Assembly: GCA_028288905.1 (NCBI GenBank)
Contig: JAQGHJ010000166.1
Location: forward strand, 1 to 10,359
From: Phycisphaerales bacterium
Lineage (GTDB): Bacteria; Planctomycetota; Phycisphaerae; Tepidisphaerales; Tepidisphaeraceae
DNA: 10,359 bases
Direction: 5' to 3'
Shown here piece after piece: positions 3,508 to 10,359 of this stretch (positions are counted from its first letter, which is position 1; every line of letters begins with the position of its first letter). The notes below the pieces were generated by a model. It made no database searches. It was not told the origin of the DNA and saw only the letters and a list, made by a program, of their open reading frames with translations. Both the position numbers and the translations under genes were made by a program.

Positions 3508-3548
3508 GCCTGCTCGTAGTTCTGGAACGGGTTCCGCGGTTCGGCGGC

Positions 3549-3672
3549 CCCGTCAGTGACACGGGCTTCCAGCCCGTGCGCACACGCACCAACGCCTGGG
3601 GTGGCCAAAACTCAATAGGCCGAATGGCTTCCGGTCCGCGCGGACGGGCTGGAAGCCCGTGTCACTGACGGG
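3549..3672. repeat. Inverted pair of REP-like palindromic elements (second copy)
   Basis: Bases 3549-3577 are exactly the reverse complement of 3644-3672 (29 bases, 66 between). Both arms carry the hairpin core and flank found at 873-996; the outer CACGGG stem of the right arm has one change (ACGGG preceded by G). The total span of 124 bases equals that of the first pair, though the bases between the arms differ. Confidence 0.85.
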
Positions 3673-3729
3673 CCTGCCTCCCGATCGAACCCCTTCGCGC
3701 GAGGACCCGTGTCCGACTGCCAACGTCCG

Positions 3730-4362: not shown

Positions 4363-4899
4363 GTGAAGTTCAACCTGATCGACAAGATCGACCTGCTGAC
4401 GGACGACCGGATCGTCGCCAGCAAGTTCGTCTCGCTGGCCGAGGAATACCTGGCCGACCACTTCCCGACGTTCCCGGTGTTGCCGGGCGTGATGATGCTG
4501 GAGGCCGCCACCCAGGCGGCCGGGTGGGTGCTGCACCGGCGGACGAACTTCGCCAAATCGATGGCGGTGCTGAAGGAGTCGCGGAACATCCGGTACGGGA
4601 ACTTCGTCGCCCCGGGCAACTTCCTGCGGATCGAGGCCGAGCTGTCGAAGGCGACGGACGCCGGCGGCACCTTTAAGGTGACCGGGTCGGTCGTGAACAG
4701 CGCCGGGCAAGCGTCCGACGCCCCGGCCATCACCGGGCGGATCGAGATCGCCCTGTTCGACCTGGCCGAAAAGCAGCCGGCGCTGGCCGAGCTGGACGGG
4801 CGGCTGAAGGAACACAACCGGCTGCGGTGGAAGCTGTTGGAACAGGGGATGGGGACGCCCGGGGCGGCGACGCCGTCGGGCGTCGCCGTGGCGGTCTGA
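4363..4899 (+). CDS. fabZ: FabZ-like 3-hydroxyacyl-ACP dehydratase (DH1), active site intact
   Basis: A hot-dog-fold enzyme expected to dehydrate 3-hydroxyacyl-ACP to trans-2-enoyl-ACP. With the GTG start at 4363 it has 178 residues and begins MKFNLIDKIDLL, where FabZ-like proteins of this kind normally begin. An upstream in-frame ATG (4249) would only add a Pro/Arg-rich extension. The active-site segment HFPTFPVLPGVMMLE places His33 and Glu47 exactly 14 apart, as in FabZ. FVSLAEEYLADHFP precedes it and the central helix is EAATQAAGWVL. A C-terminal tail of about 30 residues (from about 145) goes beyond the core and ends in low-complexity GAATPSGVAVAV. The Shine-Dalgarno is weak. It is the first gene of the cluster; the ACP follows after 169 bases. 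It could serve a dedicated acyl or polyene pathway rather than bulk lipid synthesis. Confidence 0.9.
   Translation: MKFNLIDKIDLLTDDRIVASKFVSLAEEYLADHFPTFPVLPGVMMLEAATQAAGWVLHRRTNFAKSMAVLKESRNIRYGNFVAPGNFLRIEAELSKATDAGGTFKVTGSVVNSAGQASDAPAITGRIEIALFDLAEKQPALAELDGRLKEHNRLRWKLLEQGMGTPGAATPSGVAVAV
4865..4888. other. Perfect 10-bp hairpin at the 3' end of DH1
   Basis: CGGCGACGCC (4865-4874) pairs exactly with 4879-4888 around a GTCG loop, within the last codons of DH1. A second, weaker stem (4890-4894 with 4902-4906) encloses the stop. They may shield or terminate the transcript between DH1 and ACP; there is no T-tract. Confidence 0.5.
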
Positions 4900-4922
4900 G
4901 GCCGCCCCGTCCGTTGTCATTT

Positions 4923-5060
4923 GTCCTTGGTCCTTCGCGGGGCGGACAAATCCCGTTGGACCGCGGGCGTCGGGCGTGCCGATGTACGGGGAGGGCCCGA
5001 TAATGTCCTCACGGGCGTGCTGACAAGGGACCAAGGACCAAGGACGAAGGACCAAGGACG
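4923..5060. repeat. Heptamer tandem repeat with distant inverted partner before the ACP gene
   Basis: Five tandem units of AAGGACC/AAGGACG (the first one base longer) fill 5025-5060. A 15-base stretch at 4923-4937 is the exact reverse complement of 5045-5059. The last unit's AAGGA (5054-5058) stands 10 nt before the ACP start and is the only Shine-Dalgarno candidate, so the repeat provides the ribosome binding site. Its inverted partner could pair with it. Confidence 0.75.
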
Positions 5061-5068
5061 AAACGACA

Positions 5069-5488
5069 ATGGCTTTTTCACGCGACGAGATCTACGCGAA
5101 GGTTCAGAACGTGCTGGTCGACGCCCTCGGGGTGGACGACGACGAGGTGACCCCGACAGCCACCCTCAGCGGCGACCTCGGGGCCGAGAGCATCGACTAC
5201 CTGGACATCGTGTTCCGGCTCGAGAAGGCGTTCACGGCCGACCCGACGAAGCCGTTCAAGATCCCGCGGGGCGAGCTGTTCCCCGAGGACATCGAGACGC
5301 TGAAGAACGACCCCAGTTTCGTCGCCGACGGGAAGATCACCCCGAAGGGGACGGCCGAGCTGAAGAAGCGGATGCCGTACGCCGACTTCACCGAGTTCGA
5401 GAAGGACCCGACGGTCGACGCCGCCAACGGCCTGCTGACCGTGAACACGGTCGTGAACTACGTCGAGGCGAAGCTGAAGGCGGCCTGA
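5069..5488 (+). CDS. Enlarged acyl carrier protein
   Basis: Carries the growing acyl chain on a phosphopantetheine arm. It has 139 residues, against about 80 for a normal ACP. Helix I is EIYAKVQNVLVDALGV. The attachment motif DLGAESIDYLDIVFRLEKAF puts the phosphopantetheine Ser at position 41 (GAES-I-D in place of the common DSLD). About 55 residues are then inserted (from PTKPFKIPRGELFPED to about residue 120) before the final helix LLTVNTVVNYVEAKL, which matches the TTVQAAIDYI region of standard ACPs. The start at 5069 is supported by AAGGA 10 nt upstream. It sits between the two dehydratase genes and presumably serves both and the ketosynthases. The insert may be a recognition surface; that is inference. 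Confidence 0.92.
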   Translation: MAFSRDEIYAKVQNVLVDALGVDDDEVTPTATLSGDLGAESIDYLDIVFRLEKAFTADPTKPFKIPRGELFPEDIETLKNDPSFVADGKITPKGTAELKKRMPYADFTEFEKDPTVDAANGLLTVNTVVNYVEAKLKAA

Positions 5489-5499
5489 GCCGCCTTCAG
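5474..5499. terminator. Perfect 11-bp hairpin across the ACP stop codon
   Basis: CTGAAGGCGGC (5474-5484) pairs exactly with 5489-5499 around the loop CTGA, which contains the TGA stop. No T-run follows. It could be an attenuator or RNA-stability element that lets ACP be made in excess of the genes downstream, a common need for carrier proteins. Confidence 0.5.
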
Positions 5500-5512
5500 G
5501 AGTAGGCGGCAC

Positions 5513-5629
5513 GCAGTAGGCGGTAGGCAGAAGAGAGAGGGCAGGGGCCAGAGCAGGTTGTCTCGCCCGCTTGTTCTGCCTTTCCCTTCTGCTCTTCTCC
5601 GCCACTGCGTACTGCCTACCGCGTACTGC
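5513..5629. repeat. Inverted repeat filling the spacer before DH2
   Basis: Bases 5513-5530 (GCAGTAGGCGGTAGGCAG) match the reverse complement of 5612-5629 at 17 of 18 positions, and further pieces of the same GTAGGC/GCCTAC motif surround both arms. A purine-rich half (5531-5550) and a pyrimidine-rich half (5580-5600) add partial pairing. The element occupies nearly the whole 150-base spacer and ends nine bases before the DH2 start. Confidence 0.7.
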
Positions 5630-5638
5630 CTACTACCC

Positions 5639-6139
5639 ATGCGCTGGATCTGGATCGACAAGTTCACCGAGTTCACGAGCAAGACCTCCGCGACGGCGGT
5701 CAAGAACGTGTCGTTGGCCGAGGAGCACCTGCACGACCTGTACCCGGCGTTCCCGGTCGTGCCGCACAGCCTGATCGTCGAGGGCATGGCTCAGACGGCC
5801 GGTATCCTGGTCGGCGAGGCCCGGAACTTCGCCGAGAAGGTGATCCTGGCCAAGATCGGCAAGGCCACGTTCCACCGGCTCGTCCGCCCGGGCGAGACGA
5901 TCGCGTACGCGGCCAAGATCGAGCAGCTCAACGAGATCGGCGCGTCGATCGCCGGCACCGTGACCGTCACCAGCCCGGACCAGCCGACGCCGCAGAAGGT
6001 GGCGGACATCGAACTGATGTTCAGCCACATCGACCAGAACATGTCCGGCATGGCGTTCCCGGAGCACAACTTCGTGTTCACGGAGCAGTTCACGGAGTTG
6101 CTGAAGAACTACCGGACGGGGTCGAGCGTCACGATCTGA
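5639..6139 (+). CDS. FabZ-like hot-dog protein lacking the catalytic His (DH2)
   Basis: The product has 166 residues from ATG 5639, beginning MRWIWIDKFTEF. The longer frame from 5558 is translated repeat DNA and is not used here. It has the hot-dog layout of DH1: NVSLAEEHLHD, an active-site segment, the helix EGMAQTAGILVGEA, and strands KVILAKIGKATFHRLVRPGETIAYAAKI. In HDLYPAFPVVPHSLIVE the position of the FabZ catalytic His is Leu34 (DH1: His33), while the partner Glu48 is kept. His32 and an extra His43, replacing the usual Gly, are nearby. It may therefore be a non-catalytic partner of DH1, or use another His. No Shine-Dalgarno is visible before ATG (CTACTACCC). It lies between the ACP gene and a small membrane protein gene. 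Confidence 0.87.
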   Translation: MRWIWIDKFTEFTSKTSATAVKNVSLAEEHLHDLYPAFPVVPHSLIVEGMAQTAGILVGEARNFAEKVILAKIGKATFHRLVRPGETIAYAAKIEQLNEIGASIAGTVTVTSPDQPTPQKVADIELMFSHIDQNMSGMAFPEHNFVFTEQFTELLKNYRTGSSVTI

Positions 6140-6167
6140 GATTCGCTGCGGTGCTCGTGACCGATAA

Positions 6168-6425
6168 ATGTCGCTCGCCCCATACCGTGGGATGACTCGG
6201 CTTGGGGGACGGGTGCTTGAACTCATGCTGCTGATCGCCGCAGTTGTGGCGATGGTCAAGATCGCGTCGGCCGACGATCAATCGACCGTCATTTGGGGAT
6301 CGATCACGCTGGCTTTAGGCGTTGCGTTCGTGATGTTCGTCCCCATCCCGTTCGCTCGGGTAGGCTTCGCGTTCGTGACCTCGTTTGTTGGAATGATCGC
6401 CTACAAGATGGCGGCCGACCGGTAG
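6168..6425 (+). CDS. Small hydrophobic membrane protein, unknown function
   Basis: The product has 85 residues with two or three likely membrane helices (about 16-33, 41-60 and 62-81) and a basic end (YKMAADR). A second possible start, ATG 6192, gives 77 residues beginning MTRLGG; neither start has a clear Shine-Dalgarno. The gene is on the same strand between DH2 (28 bases upstream) and KS1 (79 bases downstream). Codon use is less strict than in the enzymes around it. I recognise no family. Its position invites a role in anchoring the acyl-synthesis complex to the membrane, but that is only inference. Confidence 0.6.
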   Translation: MSLAPYRGMTRLGGRVLELMLLIAAVVAMVKIASADDQSTVIWGSITLALGVAFVMFVPIPFARVGFAFVTSFVGMIAYKMAADR

Positions 6426-6504
6426 GTCGTTTCACGGCCGTTCCGGTGAACTCCCCTCCCTTGCGGCCGGCCCGCGACGTGCCGGCCGCACAGCACGGAA
6501 ACCC

Positions 6505-7812
6505 ATGAGCAGGCGAGTTGTAGTCACCGGCATCGGCATTGTGTCCCCGATCGGCATCGGCACGGCCGCGTTCTGGCAGAACCTGACCGCCGGCGCGTGC
6601 GGCGTCCGGCGGATCGCTTCGTACGACCCGTCCGGGTTCCCGTCGCAGATCGGCGGCGAGGTGCCGGCGTACAAGATCAACGACTTCGTCCCCAAGAGCT
6701 ACCGCAAGGCCACCAAGGTGATGGCCCGGGACATCGAGCTGGCCGTCATCGCGGCCGACGACGCGTTCAAGGACTCGGGGCTCAAAAGCAAGGCGTACGC
6801 CGACGCCCCGACGATCGAAGGCCACCGGTTCGGGTGCAACATCGGGGCGGGGCTGATCAGCATCGACCTGGCCGAGCTGACCGGCGCGCTAACGGCCGCC
6901 CGCAGCGCGGCCGACCCGGGCAAGCTCGACCTGACCAAGTGGGGCCAGGAGGGCATGCAGCAGCTCACCCCGCTGTGGCTGCTGAAGTACCTGCCGAACA
7001 TGCTGGCCTGCCACGTGACGATCATCCACGGGCTCAAGGGCCCGTCGAACACGATCACGTGCGCCGACGCCAGCAGCCATCTGGCGATCGGGGAGGCGTA
7101 CCGCACCGTCCAGCGGGGCGACGCGGACCTGGCGATCTGCGGCGGGGCCGAGACGAAGATCGTCCCGATGGCCCTGATGCGGCAGATCCTCCTGAAGCGC
7201 GTCACGACGGAACACAACGACACGCCCGAGCGGGCGGTCCGCCCGTTCGACGCCGCCGCCACCGGAACGGCCGCCGCCGAGGGCGGCGGGCTGCTGATCC
7301 TCGAGGAGTACGAGCACGCCGCCGCCCGCGGGGCGAAGATCTACGCCGAAATCGTCGGCTTCGGGGCCAGCCAGGACACGTACCGCGTGACCGAGCCGGA
7401 CCCGTCGGGGCACAGCTACGGCCGGGCCGTGAGCAAGGCGCTGGCGGAGGCCAACCTGCCGCCGGCCGCCGTCGACCTGATCGTCCCGTGCGGCATCGGC
7501 ATCCCCGGGCACGACCGGGCGGAGTTGGCCGGCCTCGACACGGTCTTTGGCAACGGGCTCGGCCGCGTCGCGATGAGCACCATCAAGGCCCAGGTCGGCA
7601 ACCTGGCCGCCGGCTCGGGGGTGGACGCCGCCACGGCCGCCCTGAGCGTGTTCCACGGCGTTGTCCCACCGGCCAAGAACACGACGACCCCGGCCGGCGG
7701 GCGAACGTTGAACGTGTCGCCCGAGAGCCGGCAGCTGGCGGTGAACGTGGCCGTCAGCAGCGTGTACAGCCTTGGGGGGCAGAACGCGGCGCTGGTGTTC
7801 AAGAAGATCTAG
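6505..7812 (+). CDS. FabF-like ketosynthase homologue lacking both catalytic His (KS1)
   Basis: The product has 435 residues with the full two-half thiolase fold of FabF-type beta-ketoacyl-ACP synthases: RRVVVTGIGIVSPIG at the start, GDADLAICGGAETKI, EGGGLLILEEYEHAAARGAKIYAEIVGFG, and SSVYSLGGQNAALVFKKI at the end. The nucleophile region NTITCADASSHLAIGEA keeps Cys186. The first His motif (NAHGT in FabF) reads VPCGI, so the residue is Cys329. The second (GHL) reads GNL, so it is Asn366. The Lys of STIK is retained. Without His, decarboxylation of malonyl-ACP by the normal route is not expected. It may act as a chain-length-factor-like partner of KS2, or use a different chemistry. It is preceded and followed by small membrane protein genes. 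Confidence 0.9.
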   Translation: MSRRVVVTGIGIVSPIGIGTAAFWQNLTAGACGVRRIASYDPSGFPSQIGGEVPAYKINDFVPKSYRKATKVMARDIELAVIAADDAFKDSGLKSKAYADAPTIEGHRFGCNIGAGLISIDLAELTGALTAARSAADPGKLDLTKWGQEGMQQLTPLWLLKYLPNMLACHVTIIHGLKGPSNTITCADASSHLAIGEAYRTVQRGDADLAICGGAETKIVPMALMRQILLKRVTTEHNDTPERAVRPFDAAATGTAAAEGGGLLILEEYEHAAARGAKIYAEIVGFGASQDTYRVTEPDPSGHSYGRAVSKALAEANLPPAAVDLIVPCGIGIPGHDRAELAGLDTVFGNGLGRVAMSTIKAQVGNLAAGSGVDAATAALSVFHGVVPPAKNTTTPAGGRTLNVSPESRQLAVNVAVSSVYSLGGQNAALVFKKI

Positions 7813-7871
7813 TTCGGGGAGGCCGTTCTGACGGGCCGTCAATAAGGGGTAAGGCCACGCTAGAGTTCTGG

Positions 7872-8045
7872 ATGGAGCTGCCGTGGTGGCTGCGATTGGG
7901 TACGGCCGCCCTGATGATCGGGATCGGCGTGGTGGCCTTCGTCCTCGGCGTGTTTCGACTGGGATGCGTCCTGGTCGGCGTGGGCTGCGTGCTCATCCTC
8001 GCCGGCGCGCGCAGCTCGTCCGAGAAGAACGGGTATCGGTTTTGA
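7872..8045 (+). CDS. Very small two-helix membrane protein
   Basis: The product has 57 residues, beginning MELPWWLRLG, with two hydrophobic helices (about 9-27 and 29-46) joined by Arg29 and a polar tail SSSEKNGYRF. ATG 7872 is chosen because the sequence upstream in this frame belongs to no recognisable protein. AAGG at 7851-7854 is too distant to be an ideal ribosome site. It lies between KS1 (59 bases upstream) and KS2 (57 bases downstream) on the same strand. Together with the 6168 gene it is the second tiny membrane protein set between enzymes of the cluster. The family is unknown. Confidence 0.55.
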   Translation: MELPWWLRLGTAALMIGIGVVAFVLGVFRLGCVLVGVGCVLILAGARSSSEKNGYRF

Positions 8046-8093
8046 CCACGCGGCCTCGCCTTCCGGGGCGGCGGGCATCGTTTCGGACAGATT

Positions 8094-8098
8094 GAGGT
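8094..8098 (+). promoter_or_regulatory. Shine-Dalgarno GAGGT for KS2
   Basis: GAGGT lies 4 nt before ATG 8103, one of the few recognisable ribosome sites in the cluster, and supports that start. Confidence 0.5.
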
Positions 8099-8102
8099 AG
8101 CT

Positions 8103-9254
8103 ATGCACCGCGTCGTCATCACCGGAATGGGCTGGGTCACCCCGATGGGTCACGACCTCGAGACGGTCTGGGCCCGGTTGCTCCGCGGGGAGTCGGGCAT
8201 TGCGGACACGACCCTGTTCGACGCGTCCACGTTCCCGACGCGGATCAGCGCCGAGGTGAAGGGCTTCCGCTTCGCCGACCACGTCGCCGACACGGCCGGT
8301 CACGACGGGGCCGGGCGGAACACCCAGTTCGCCCTCGCCGCCGCCGCCCAGGCGTGGACGAGCGCCGGCCTGCCCCCGCTCGGGACCGCGCACTCGGCAC
8401 CCGTCACTTCTTCCTCCGCCGCCGCTCCCGCCCTCGATCTCGACCGGGTCGGCGTCTACCTCGGGTCGGGAGAGGGGTCGCTCGACTTCGAGGCGTTCAC
8501 CCGGGCCAACCTGGCCGCCTGGCAGCCCGAGGGCCAGGCGCACGACGCGTCGAAGTTCGCCGAGCTGGCGCTGCAGCTGATGGACGTGACCCGCGAACTG
8601 GAGCAGGAGCCGAACATGCCCCTGAGCCACCTAGCGATCCTAACCGGGGCCCGCGGCCCGGCCATGAACTGCCTGACCGCCTGCGCGGCCAGCACCCAGG
8701 CGATAGGGGAGGCGACCGAGATCCTCCGCCGGGGGGACGCGGACGTGATGATCGGCGGCGGCGCCCACAGCATGATCCACCCGTTCGGGGTCACAGGCTT
8801 CAACCGCCTGACCGCCCTGAGCACGGCCAACGCCGAGCCGGCCAAGGCGAGCCGCCCGTTTGACGCCCAGCGGGGCGGGTTCGTGCTCGGCGAGGGGGCG
8901 GGCGTCGTCATCCTCGAAACGCTGGAGCACGCTCAGAAGCGCGGCGCGACGATCCTGGCCGAGGTCGTCGGGTACGGCAGCACGGCCGACGCGTACCGCA
9001 TCACCGACCAAGACCCCGAGGGCATGGGGGCGGTGGTGGCGATGCGGGAGGCGCTGTCGGACGCGAACCTGACGCCGGCCGACGTACAGTACATCAACGC
9101 ACACGGCACCGGCACCCGGGAGAACGACGGGAACGAGACGAACGCGATCCGCATCCTGTACGGGGACAAGGCCAAGGCGTGCCCGGTCAGCAGCATCAAG
9201 AGCATGATGGGCCACCTGATCGCCGCGGCCGGGGCGGTCGAGCTGATCACGTGA
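8103..9254 (+). CDS. fabF: FabF-like beta-ketoacyl-ACP synthase (KS2), cut short by an in-frame TGA
   Basis: Condenses malonyl-ACP with an acyl primer to give 3-ketoacyl-ACP. The 383 residues before the TGA contain the start HRVVITGMGWVTPMG, the nucleophile Cys194 in NCLTACAASTQAIGEA, GDADVMIGGGAHSMI, FVLGEGAGVVILETLEHAQKRGA, His334 in NAHGTGT, the SIK Lys, and His371 in MMGHLIAAAGAVELIT. All catalytic residues are therefore intact. A Ser/Ala-rich insert (about 93-113) makes it longer than E. coli FabF. TGA at 9252-9254 falls where the protein should continue into [12 protein letters not shown]; the missing end follows in the same frame to 9434. Truncated there, the enzyme lacks the conserved NSFGFGG segment and is probably inactive unless the stop is read through. 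TGA is the ordinary stop of neighbouring genes, so the code is not altered. Confidence 0.88.
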   Translation: MHRVVITGMGWVTPMGHDLETVWARLLRGESGIADTTLFDASTFPTRISAEVKGFRFADHVADTAGHDGAGRNTQFALAAAAQAWTSAGLPPLGTAHSAPVTSSSAAAPALDLDRVGVYLGSGEGSLDFEAFTRANLAAWQPEGQAHDASKFAELALQLMDVTRELEQEPNMPLSHLAILTGARGPAMNCLTACAASTQAIGEATEILRRGDADVMIGGGAHSMIHPFGVTGFNRLTALSTANAEPAKASRPFDAQRGGFVLGEGAGVVILETLEHAQKRGATILAEVVGYGSTADAYRITDQDPEGMGAVVAMREALSDANLTPADVQYINAHGTGTRENDGNETNAIRILYGDKAKACPVSSIKSMMGHLIAAAGAVELIT

Positions 9255-9434
9255 GTGCTGGCGATCCGCGACCAGGTGCTGCCGCCGACGATGAACATGG
9301 ACACGGCCGACCCCGACTGCGACCTCGACTACGTCCCGAACGCGGCCCGGGAGGCGAAGGTGGACGTGGTGATGAGCAACAGCTTCGGGTTCGGCGGGCA
9401 GAACGACACGATCATCGTGAAGCGGTGGGCGTAG
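9255..9434 (+). pseudogene. Severed C-terminal end of KS2, in the same frame after the TGA
   Basis: The 59 codons that follow the TGA directly, in frame, read [16 protein letters not shown], then [14 protein letters not shown], then [19 protein letters not shown] and a TAG stop. These are the canonical last strands of FabF, including the NSFGFGG active-site loop. With them the whole protein would be 443 residues with codon 384 being TGA. There are no further stops or shifts and the codons are still G/C-ending, so decay, if any, is recent. GTG stands immediately after the TGA (9255-9257), so coupled re-initiation giving a separate fragment cannot be excluded. Confidence 0.85.
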
Positions 9435-9468: not shown

Positions 9469-10359
9469 ATGGTGTTGGTCTTCGGGACGGTACACACCGC
9501 CAAAAATCTCGGGGTCCGGCTGCGACGGGTCTGTTGCGAGCGTTGCGGCGCGTGCTACTTCTACGAGATGGTGCGGGTCGGAACGGGTAAAGGGGGTAGC
9601 CTCTATCTCCTCGACGAGGGTGGGGCTCGGGACCGCGCGAGCCTGTCGGCGAAGGCGAGGCTCGGTCAGATGTTGAACGCCGGGGTAGACCCGGTGCCCT
9701 GCCCGCAGTGTGGGCACCTGCAACGAGCAATGTCTCAGTTCGTGCGGGCGGGTTCACCGTTGCCGGTCCCGGGGATGCCGCCAGCCCTCGTGCTGGTGGA
9801 GGGGATAGACCCGTCGACCGGGGATTCCGTCCAGCACCTGACGACCGCCCAGCCGATTGAAATCGCGCCGTCCAAAGGCTGGGTCAGCATTCAACTCCCA
9901 AGATTCCAGTTGCCGGACGCCTGTTGCGTCTGTTGCGGTCCGGCAGACGCGCGCTACGTTCCGCCCTTACGACTCAACTCGACGGAAGGCGCGCTCAAGC
10001 CGTTCGTGTGCCGCCATTGTGAGACCGGCCTGCGACGCGTGACTTGGCGCTGGGCAACGATTGGCTGGGCGCTTGCAGGCGCGCTGTTCCTGTGCCTCGC
10101 CCTGCTCGTGCCGGACGTCAACAGCCTAGGGGAGGTCGGGTTCATCGGCGGCGGCAGCCTACTGCTGGGGTTGATCCTGATGTTCTTGCTGCCAAGCGTC
10201 TTCGCCCATACTTACAGCTTGGTAGGAGTTGACCCGACGCGGGCGATCTACCAACTGCGCTTTCGGAGTGAGCCATACAATCAATTGATCGCGGCCACAG
10301 TGTCGCTGTCCAACAATTCCGGCCCGGTGTTTTCGTATGAATCAGACGAGGCAGCCGTC
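9469..10359 (+). CDS. Zinc-ribbon membrane protein, 3' end outside window
   Basis: From ATG 9469 the frame stays open for 297 codons to the window edge. The first module has C22, C23, C26 and C29 (CCERCGAC) and C78-x-x-C81 (CPQCGHL). The second has C152, C153, C155 and C156 (CCVCCG) and C181-x-x-C184 (CRHC). Each looks like a four-Cys zinc ribbon with its two knuckles about 25-50 residues apart. Two hydrophobic helices follow (about 193-214 and 223-245) and then a polar region of at least 50 residues. GGGG 8 nt or so upstream is a poor Shine-Dalgarno. Codons such as AAA, TTA, ATA, CTA and GGT are far commoner than in the upstream genes, so it belongs to another expression class or has another history. 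It starts 34 bases after KS2's original end. I recognise no family. Confidence 0.75.
   Translation, partial: MVLVFGTVHTAKNLGVRLRRVCCERCGACYFYEMVRVGTGKGGSLYLLDEGGARDRASLSAKARLGQMLNAGVDPVPCPQCGHLQRAMSQFVRAGSPLPVPGMPPALVLVEGIDPSTGDSVQHLTTAQPIEIAPSKGWVSIQLPRFQLPDACCVCCGPADARYVPPLRLNSTEGALKPFVCRHCETGLRRVTWRWATIGWALAGALFLCLALLVPDVNSLGEVGFIGGGSLLLGLILMFLLPSVFAHTYSLVGVDPTRAIYQLRFRSEPYNQLIAATVSLSNNSGPVFSYESDEAAV

Follow-up and report, generated by a model that had tools for sequence, protein, structure and literature searches.

A conserved five-gene cluster of Planctomycetota as a candidate dedicated acyl-chain synthase with paired ketosynthases and dehydratases

Type II polyketide synthase (PKS)-like machines, in which a ketosynthase (KS) works with a chain-length factor (CLF), are usually regarded as accessory secondary metabolism. 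Gene sets with a special acyl carrier protein (ACP), two KSs and a dedicated or heterodimeric dehydratase (DH), and with the ketoreductase (KR) and enoyl reductase (ER) encoded elsewhere, are known as rhizobial acpXL-fabZXL-fabF2XL-fabF1XL and as mycobacterial AcpM-KasA-KasB with HadAB/HadBC. A catalogue of type II PKS KS-CLF pairs counts Planctomycetes among 14 phyla (PMC10132072), the anammox ladderane candidate cluster kuste3603-3608 holds an ACP, a FabZ, a FabF and a degenerate FabF together (PMC4790861), and the KS residues of Kuste3606 and Kuste2805 are printed as Val/Asn/Lys/Glu and Phe/Asn/Lys/Glu (PMC2649909), with Table 2 of the same paper giving RB4527 and RB3714 of R. baltica as non-canonical FabFs with Glu163 or Asp163 and His298. 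Here, a cluster of five genes, DH1-ACP-DH2-KS1-KS2, is described from positions 4363-9434 of a 10,359-nucleotide stretch of DNA (JAQGHJ010000166.1, hereafter the window), which is the entire contig C909 of an assembly that is 65% complete and consists of 969 contigs. From a comparison of gene set, gene order, distribution, residue patterns and FabG location, it is reasonably probable that the cluster encodes a dedicated, vertically inherited acyl-chain synthase made of KS2:KS1, DH1:DH2 and its own ACP, the product of which would most likely be an acyl chain for an envelope lipid that the cell cannot do without.

Gene content, order and distribution

The five genes are all on the + strand with an intergenic spacing of 150-365 bp, and their features are as follows.

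4363..4899, + strand: DH1, FabZ-like, 178 amino acids, GTG start (Pfam FabA-like, 3.6e-13)
5069..5488, + strand: oversized ACP, 139 amino acids, Ser in GAESID (Pfam PP-binding, 1.4e-7)
5279..5428, + strand: ACP insert of ~50 residues, located after the helix III region and before the final helix (6lvt profile alignment, sequence reading, Streptomyces homologs that contain the insert)
5639..6139, + strand: DH2, FabZ-like, 166 amino acids, His replaced by Leu here and the Gly of PGV lost (own DH2 profile)
6505..7812, + strand: KS1, FabF-like, 435 amino acids, Cys to Asp, His to Cys and His to Asn (alignment, residue counts)
8103..9434, + strand: KS2, FabF-like, Cys-His-His, interrupted by TGA (alignment, residue counts)
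9252..9254, + strand: in-frame TGA in KS2 (alignment with 17 relatives)

The Pfam and NCBIfam scans concur on FabZ-like, ACP and FabF-like assignments for the five genes, and all five proteins fall under the NCBIfam equivalog cut-offs of primary fatty-acid synthesis. For TIGR03150 (cut-off 493.75), KS1 scores 321.6 and KS2, scored only on the 383 residues before the stop, 370.3; for TIGR01750 (cut-off 155) both DHs score ~70, and for TIGR00517 (cut-off 70.45) the ACP scores 46.3. The initial annotation had also counted two tiny membrane proteins as members of the cluster; these exist as open reading frames (ORFs; 6168-6425 and 7872-8045), but neither had a tblastn match across 20 related loci, and their membership was rejected for this lack of conservation.

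The window was assigned to the class Phycisphaerae because its nearest named relatives are Phycisphaerae metagenome-assembled genomes, and the Gemmata-type origin suggested initially was rejected. Among the best 80 of 558 confirmed loci, the closest named relatives are labelled Phycisphaerales, Phycisphaerae or Tepidisphaeraceae and are led by "Phycisphaerales bacterium RYN_433" with 73% identity in KS1, and all 80 carry a planctomycete label except L104, which is labelled just "bacterium". These 80 named loci were picked by two KS1 peptide patterns, so the conservation of those KS1 stretches in them is partly built in; the counts for DH, ACP and KS2 are free of this selection. The order DH1-ACP-DH2-KS1-KS2 was found in 50 of the 80 loci, and in 43 of the 53 that have at least 2.6 kb before and at least 1.4 kb after KS1. 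The comparison of gene order proposed in the initial annotation thus returned a conserved order and not a random one, and both this order and the pattern of catalytic residues recur across much of the class, more than expected by chance. In a subset of loci (L173, L049, L050, L055 and others), genes for a GH3-family protein (10 of the loci mapped) and an alpha/beta hydrolase (15 of them) lie downstream of KS2.

A DH2 profile was run over 292 genomes of the phylum, with at most 13 candidates scored per genome. DH2 orthologs (E < 1e-38) were found in the window's own genome, in 37 of the 38 other genomes of the class and, outside the class, in 38 of 253 genomes, and the profile splits the set cleanly, with all remaining genomes weaker than 1e-30 or without a score; the absence from G037 may be a miss caused by the candidate limit. 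The 38 genomes from other classes belong to six family codes (f41, f48, f74, f81, f88 and f89), which are taken here as Planctomycetia and referred to as the sister class. KS1 is present at 59% identity or more in 21 of the 25 genomes of the same family. Apart from a few exceptions, this distribution follows a vertical and not a patchy pattern.

In the sister class (15 loci), the order is DH1-(FabG-like short-chain dehydrogenase/reductase)-ACP-DH2-KS2, with the reductase in 11 loci, KS2 in 12 and KS1 in two; the counts over these 15 loci take some contigs twice, which those over the 80 loci do not. The sister-class genomes that were read have a KS1-like protein elsewhere, for which the KS1 profile gives a better score than that of KS2.

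Paired enzymes, carrier protein and ketoreductase

Residue counts refer to distinct sequences over a score cut (KS1 400, KS2 500, DHs 150 and ACP 140 bits) and not to genomes. The initial annotation read the two FabF-like proteins as one with Cys-His-His and one with Cys only. The first half holds for the TGA-interrupted KS2, whose homologs have Cys and the first His in 113/113 sequences and the second His in 110/113 (three gaps). The "Cys only" reading of KS1 is ruled out by the alignment, in which Asp occupies the nucleophile position (TCADASSH) and the nearby Cys sits two residues upstream. Across 124 KS1 sequences this position holds Glu (85), Asp (33), Ala (4), Gln (1) or Asn (1), and Cys in none, and the two His positions are kept in 29/113 and 10/113 of the Phycisphaerae sequences and in 10/11 and 4/11 of the sister-class KS1-like sequences. 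A Cys-His-His KS that adjoins a partner without nucleophile is expected of KS:CLF pairs and is seen here, and by these residues KS1 looks like a catalytically dead, CLF-like partner of the intact KS2, at full length (435 amino acids) rather than the half size of CLFs of the ApeC type. In a 55-row KS tree, which includes no characterised CLF and no aryl polyene sequence, KS1, a third odd KS and the KS1-like proteins of the sister class join the dead KSb of Streptomyces plasmids (96/95), and KS2 joins the Streptomyces KSa (96/84).

The TGA codon of KS2 corresponds to Cys in 16 of the 17 aligned relatives and to Ser in one (L046), and KS2 as assembled stops after 383 residues. The other KS matches listed for genomes of the same family have no TGA, the window's KS2 match being recorded with one, and the codon may reflect either a recent loss or an error of assembly or sequencing. 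The complete same-class genome G041 has three KS matches in total, namely FabF, KS1 and KS2. The third odd KS is full length, retains the first His but has Glu for Cys and Asn for the second His, and adjoins canonical FabF and AcpP in the three sister-class loci read for it (L224, L225 and L226). A scan of viral contigs with KS1 gave nothing informative.

Each active site of a FabZ enzyme draws its catalytic His from one protomer and its Glu from another. The window's DH1 has both His and Glu, and DH2 has Leu in place of His and keeps Glu, which bears out the initial description of two FabZ-like proteins, one of them without the His. Among 96 distinct DH1 sequences, the His (DHFP) is present in 95, the remaining one having a gap, the Gly (PGV) is invariant, and the Glu position holds Glu in 82 and Gln in 14; among 121 DH2 sequences, Glu and Gln are present in 121/121 and His in 98/121. 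The 104 DH pairs were reduced to 89 after removal of near-duplicates. If a heterodimeric FabZ is recognised by one subunit keeping the His and its partner the Glu, site A (DH1 His with DH2 Glu) is intact in 89/89 pairs, and site B (DH2 His with DH1 Glu) in 60/89 and broken in 29, by loss of the DH2 His in 17 and by change of the DH1 Glu to Gln in 13, both occurring in one pair. Parsimony on a FastTree tree gives 7 + 11 changes (~18) for the site B residues and zero for site A. All 17 pairs whose DH2 lacks its own His still have the DH2 Glu, which would most simply work with the His of another subunit, and the data fit a DH1:DH2 heterodimer that would have a single composite active site. The pairing of intact with degenerate enzymes, as first annotated, is borne out and conserved. 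DH1/DH2 may represent a clean evolutionary case of division of labour after duplication, with one composite site fixed and the mirror site decaying repeatedly. A search of phages with DH2 gave FabZ-like matches only.

The ACP, correctly noted at the outset as oversized and on the same + strand, has its Ser conserved in 112/112 distinct sequences. Alignment of its profile with the PDB ACP 6lvt breaks off at position 63, with a weak further match over 110-127, in the last helix, and the insert of about 50 residues is predicted to be structured (AlphaFold model of the ACP with a predicted local distance difference test score, pLDDT, of 86.9 and a predicted template modelling score, pTM, of 0.80). 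The ACP matches 16 plasmid records, all from Streptomyces, with a query coverage of at least 80% in 15, and its identity with the 15 records listed is 31-38%.

In agreement with the initial annotation, KR, ER and malonyl transferase are missing from the window: E. coli FabG, FabD, FabH and PlsX had no tblastn match, and no ER was found by the Pfam/NCBIfam scan of the window ORFs or by the E. coli FabI search. The own genome has a PlsX-FabH-FabD-FabG-AcpP-FabF locus on contig C384, a separate 515-amino-acid open frame containing FabZ on contig C287 (a putative LpxC-FabZ fusion, by length) and, incomplete as it is, only a weak FabI match on another contig. FabI matches (E < 1e-50) were obtained in 10 of the 12 genomes searched, with none in G041. 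The position of FabG was searched with the E. coli protein (E <= 1e-45) in 12 sister-class genomes. In six of them (G101, G147, G273, G277, G327 and G186) the sole match lies inside the cluster. In G228, G161 and G331, whose clusters lack FabG, the best match adjoins a KS that is as long as FabF and is regarded as the canonical one, with a second, weaker match in G161, and G196, G335 and G081 have two matches each, one of them within the cluster. Judging from these locations, the KR is common to the cluster and to primary fatty-acid synthesis. Because the KR in the sister-class cluster is shared in this way, the lack of a KR in the Phycisphaerae cluster says little on its chemistry, and the idea that it marks unusual chemistry was rejected.

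Proposed function and alternative products

The best reading of the locus remains a KS:CLF pair with paired dehydratases, as initially put forward. KS2 would condense, and the dead KS1 would act as its heterodimeric partner, shaping the chain pocket like a CLF. DH1 and DH2 would form one heterodimeric dehydratase with a site composed of the DH1 His and the DH2 Glu, and the intermediates would be carried on the dedicated ACP with its extra insert of ~50 residues. Beta-keto reduction would be performed by the FabG common to primary fatty-acid synthesis, malonyl transfer (FabD) and possibly enoyl reduction (FabI) may also be borrowed from it, and the product would most likely be the acyl chain of an essential envelope lipid. 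Taken as a whole, the system would be a housekeeping hybrid of type II PKS and fatty-acid synthase.

For Planctopirus limnophila, a genome-wide transposon study reports that all five members of one paralog group, 3-oxoacyl-ACP synthase 2/beta-ketoacyl synthase proteins, are essential (PMC10632474). In genome G293, which has the same family code (f41), the stand-alone KSs number exactly five, with frames of 413-466 amino acids, corresponding to FabF, KS2, a KS1-like protein, one beside FabF (by position, the third odd KS) and one that is unclassified. Setting the five KSs against the five essential paralogs, KS2 and the KS1-like protein would therefore be essential in P. limnophila, and from there we infer essentiality in the window's organism. 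This essentiality, together with the vertical distribution and the shared FabG, argues for an essential envelope acyl chain over an optional pigment. More tentatively, and with less assurance than the synthase itself, it is proposed that a housekeeping, essential type II PKS-like machine with a composite-site DH heterodimer and an insert-bearing ACP is inherited vertically in two classes of Planctomycetota, sharing its KR with fatty-acid synthesis and building the chain of an undescribed structural envelope lipid. If so, planctomycetes hold an undescribed essential lipid, which could be tested in the tractable P. limnophila.

Several observations weigh against this proposal. The essentiality data come from another class, and their mapping to KS1 and KS2 depends on the count of five. 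No KS1 ortholog was found in four of the 25 same-family genomes (G003, G013, G016 and G023, with completeness of 79, 96, 89 and 60%), and KS1 lies outside the fetched locus in 13 of the 15 sister-class clusters, where the KS1-like proteins, often retaining one or two His, need not act like KS1. The losses at site B are confined to Phycisphaerae, with 0/14 sister-class pairs broken, and 13 of the DH1 with Gln have a Glu or Asp four residues later that could rescue this site. Moreover, the window's own copy of KS2 carries a stop, and the Streptomyces branches in the KS tree are long.

Three of the alternatives differ from the proposed synthase mainly in their product. Elongation of a long or special saturated or hydroxy acyl chain, comparable to that by AcpXL/FabZXL/FabF1XL/FabF2XL or AcpM/KasA-KasB/HadAB with shared FabG and FabI, is a possible if doubtful explanation. 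Two KSs, a special ACP and a DH without KR and ER, a shared KR and a FabI located elsewhere are all consistent with it, but the ACP scores 30.6 bits with PRK06508 (cut-off 83), which we take to be the AcpXL model, so that membership of AcpXL was rejected, and no lipid A acyltransferase was identified among the neighbours sampled. Lipid A genes are also reported as essential in P. limnophila by the transposon study (PMC10632474), which favours this alternative. A polyene synthase resembling the highly reducing type II PKSs, using the same KS:CLF and DH:DH' without enoyl reduction to form a conjugated polyene chain, appears rather unlikely. It is favoured by the best-tree kinship of KS1 and KS2 with the Streptomyces KSb and KSa, which also come with an oversized ACP in clusters having KR, two DHs and no annotated ER, and by the failure to find an ER in the window. 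On the other hand, the near-universal vertical presence of the cluster is unlike that of a pigment, and many planctomycetes are unpigmented, which is counted here against a polyene. The initial annotation had argued from the missing ER to an unsaturated product; the ER is indeed absent from the window, but with the KR shared and FabI in 10 of 12 genomes the argument is weak, and a polyene product is unproven. Another alternative is oxygen-independent synthesis of unsaturated fatty acids, in which the DH pair would dehydrate and isomerise and KS2:KS1 would elongate the cis intermediate, with skipping of the ER as a natural consequence. A role of this type has to be considered since a PF00487 desaturase match is missing from 24 of the 61 genomes of the class, in which the cluster itself is near-universal. 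It is nevertheless improbable, as the desaturase family is matched in the other 37, the own genome included, and the class retains the cluster; to our knowledge, the known routes need neither a dead KS partner nor a dedicated oversized ACP.

An anammox-type ladderane pathway, or a direct relative of one, is the least probable explanation by far. Both systems have an ACP, a FabZ and an intact and a degenerate KS, and the top-scoring solved structures with DH1 include 7qv0 and 8ayc, presumably anammox FabZ. For the comparison, family code f57 was taken as anammox from the published Kuste residues; its genomes have generic FabZ only and no DH2 ortholog in the DH2 profile search of 292 genomes. 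The anammox-like clusters that were read have one FabZ, and their ACPs reach 22-24 bits with the ACP profile. In the best KS tree, the anammox degenerate KSs are placed apart from KS1, and their residue pattern differs. The approximately unbiased (AU) test did not reject a forced common clade of these KSs with KS1 (p = 0.07 and 0.10). Ladderane kinship, suggested in the initial annotation, is thus unsupported by best tree, residue pattern and ACP family, though the AU test does not exclude it. None of the ten window ORFs scanned is a radical SAM or phytoene-desaturase-like gene, neighbours in relatives having been covered by sampling.

Outside the cluster, GTCAGTGACACGGGCTTCCAGCCCGTG and its complement form the basis of a long hairpin that is present in the window in two copies (858-1011 and 3525-3696), on either side of a VIT/VWA gene. 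An open-ended ORF at 1-243 has two DxNGxxDxxD-like repeats that resemble a dockerin by eye, and another one at 9469-10359, without Pfam match, has a homolog with 39% identity at the equivalent place in the same-genus genome G001. Between the genes of the cluster, an imperfect inverted repeat precedes the ACP (4908-5060), and the segment ahead of DH2 (5500-5635) gave weak matches to miRNA families on both strands, below gathering scores, which suggest a hairpin. These matches at relaxed threshold were judged to be chance, and the Rfam scan at gathering threshold gave nothing informative.

Comparison with described systems

KS-CLF pairs and odd FabFs are already known from the phylum. The five-gene cluster and the composite DH pair of Planctomycetota appear to be new, with no description in the literature searched (supplements and most subscription journals lay outside it), and the planctomycete lipid literature, as far as it was searched, gave no product for the cluster. 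RB4527 and RB3714 have the residues of the sister-class KS1-like protein and of the third odd KS; in the sections consulted they are given only as odd paralogs and not as part of such a system. The rhizobial and mycobacterial systems are alike in gene set, and no family-level sequence link to the planctomycete cluster was found in the NCBIfam scan. The anammox cluster kuste3603-3608 is unlike in having a single FabZ, an ACP of ordinary size, a Val/Asn/Glu pattern and radical SAM and desaturase-like genes. The aryl polyene cluster (ApeO-ApeC), compared by its published description, is similar in its KS:CLF and paired dehydratases (PMC8358021).

The type II PKS clusters on Streptomyces linear plasmids (for example NZ_CP134610 and NZ_CP107820) share oversized ACP homologs, a KS:dead-KS pair that goes with KS2:KS1 in the best tree, and a similar split of DH His and Glu. 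Six of the seven plasmid clusters read have the order FabD-ACP-KR-DH-KS-DH-KS, the other one lacking KR and DH there. In these six (L238, L239 and L247-L250), DHa has Glu and Gln in 6/6 and His in 3/6, and DHb has His, Gly and Glu in 6/6. DHa and DHb were considered as orthologs of DH2 and DH1, which was dropped because the tree does not resolve it and the residue split alone is common. The Streptomyces clusters are unlike the planctomycete one in lying on plasmids and in bringing a KR and a FabD of their own, along with tailoring enzymes and a third KS of greater length.

The highly reducing type II PKSs, such as that of ishigamide (Iga11-Iga12), are similar in that a KS:CLF heterodimer acts with KR and DH on an ACP (PMC8358021, PMC10698177), and a corresponding heterodimer is proposed here from the residue patterns. 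Of their features, the DH pair is present, and the KR is absent from the window's cluster yet found in 11 of the 15 sister-class clusters. In these sources the enzymes are described as secondary metabolism, whereas in planctomycetes a KS:CLF-like machine is near-universal in the Phycisphaerae searched and present in the six families taken as Planctomycetia, and appears to be vertically inherited, to share its KR with fatty-acid synthesis and to have Asp or Glu at the Cys position of KS1.

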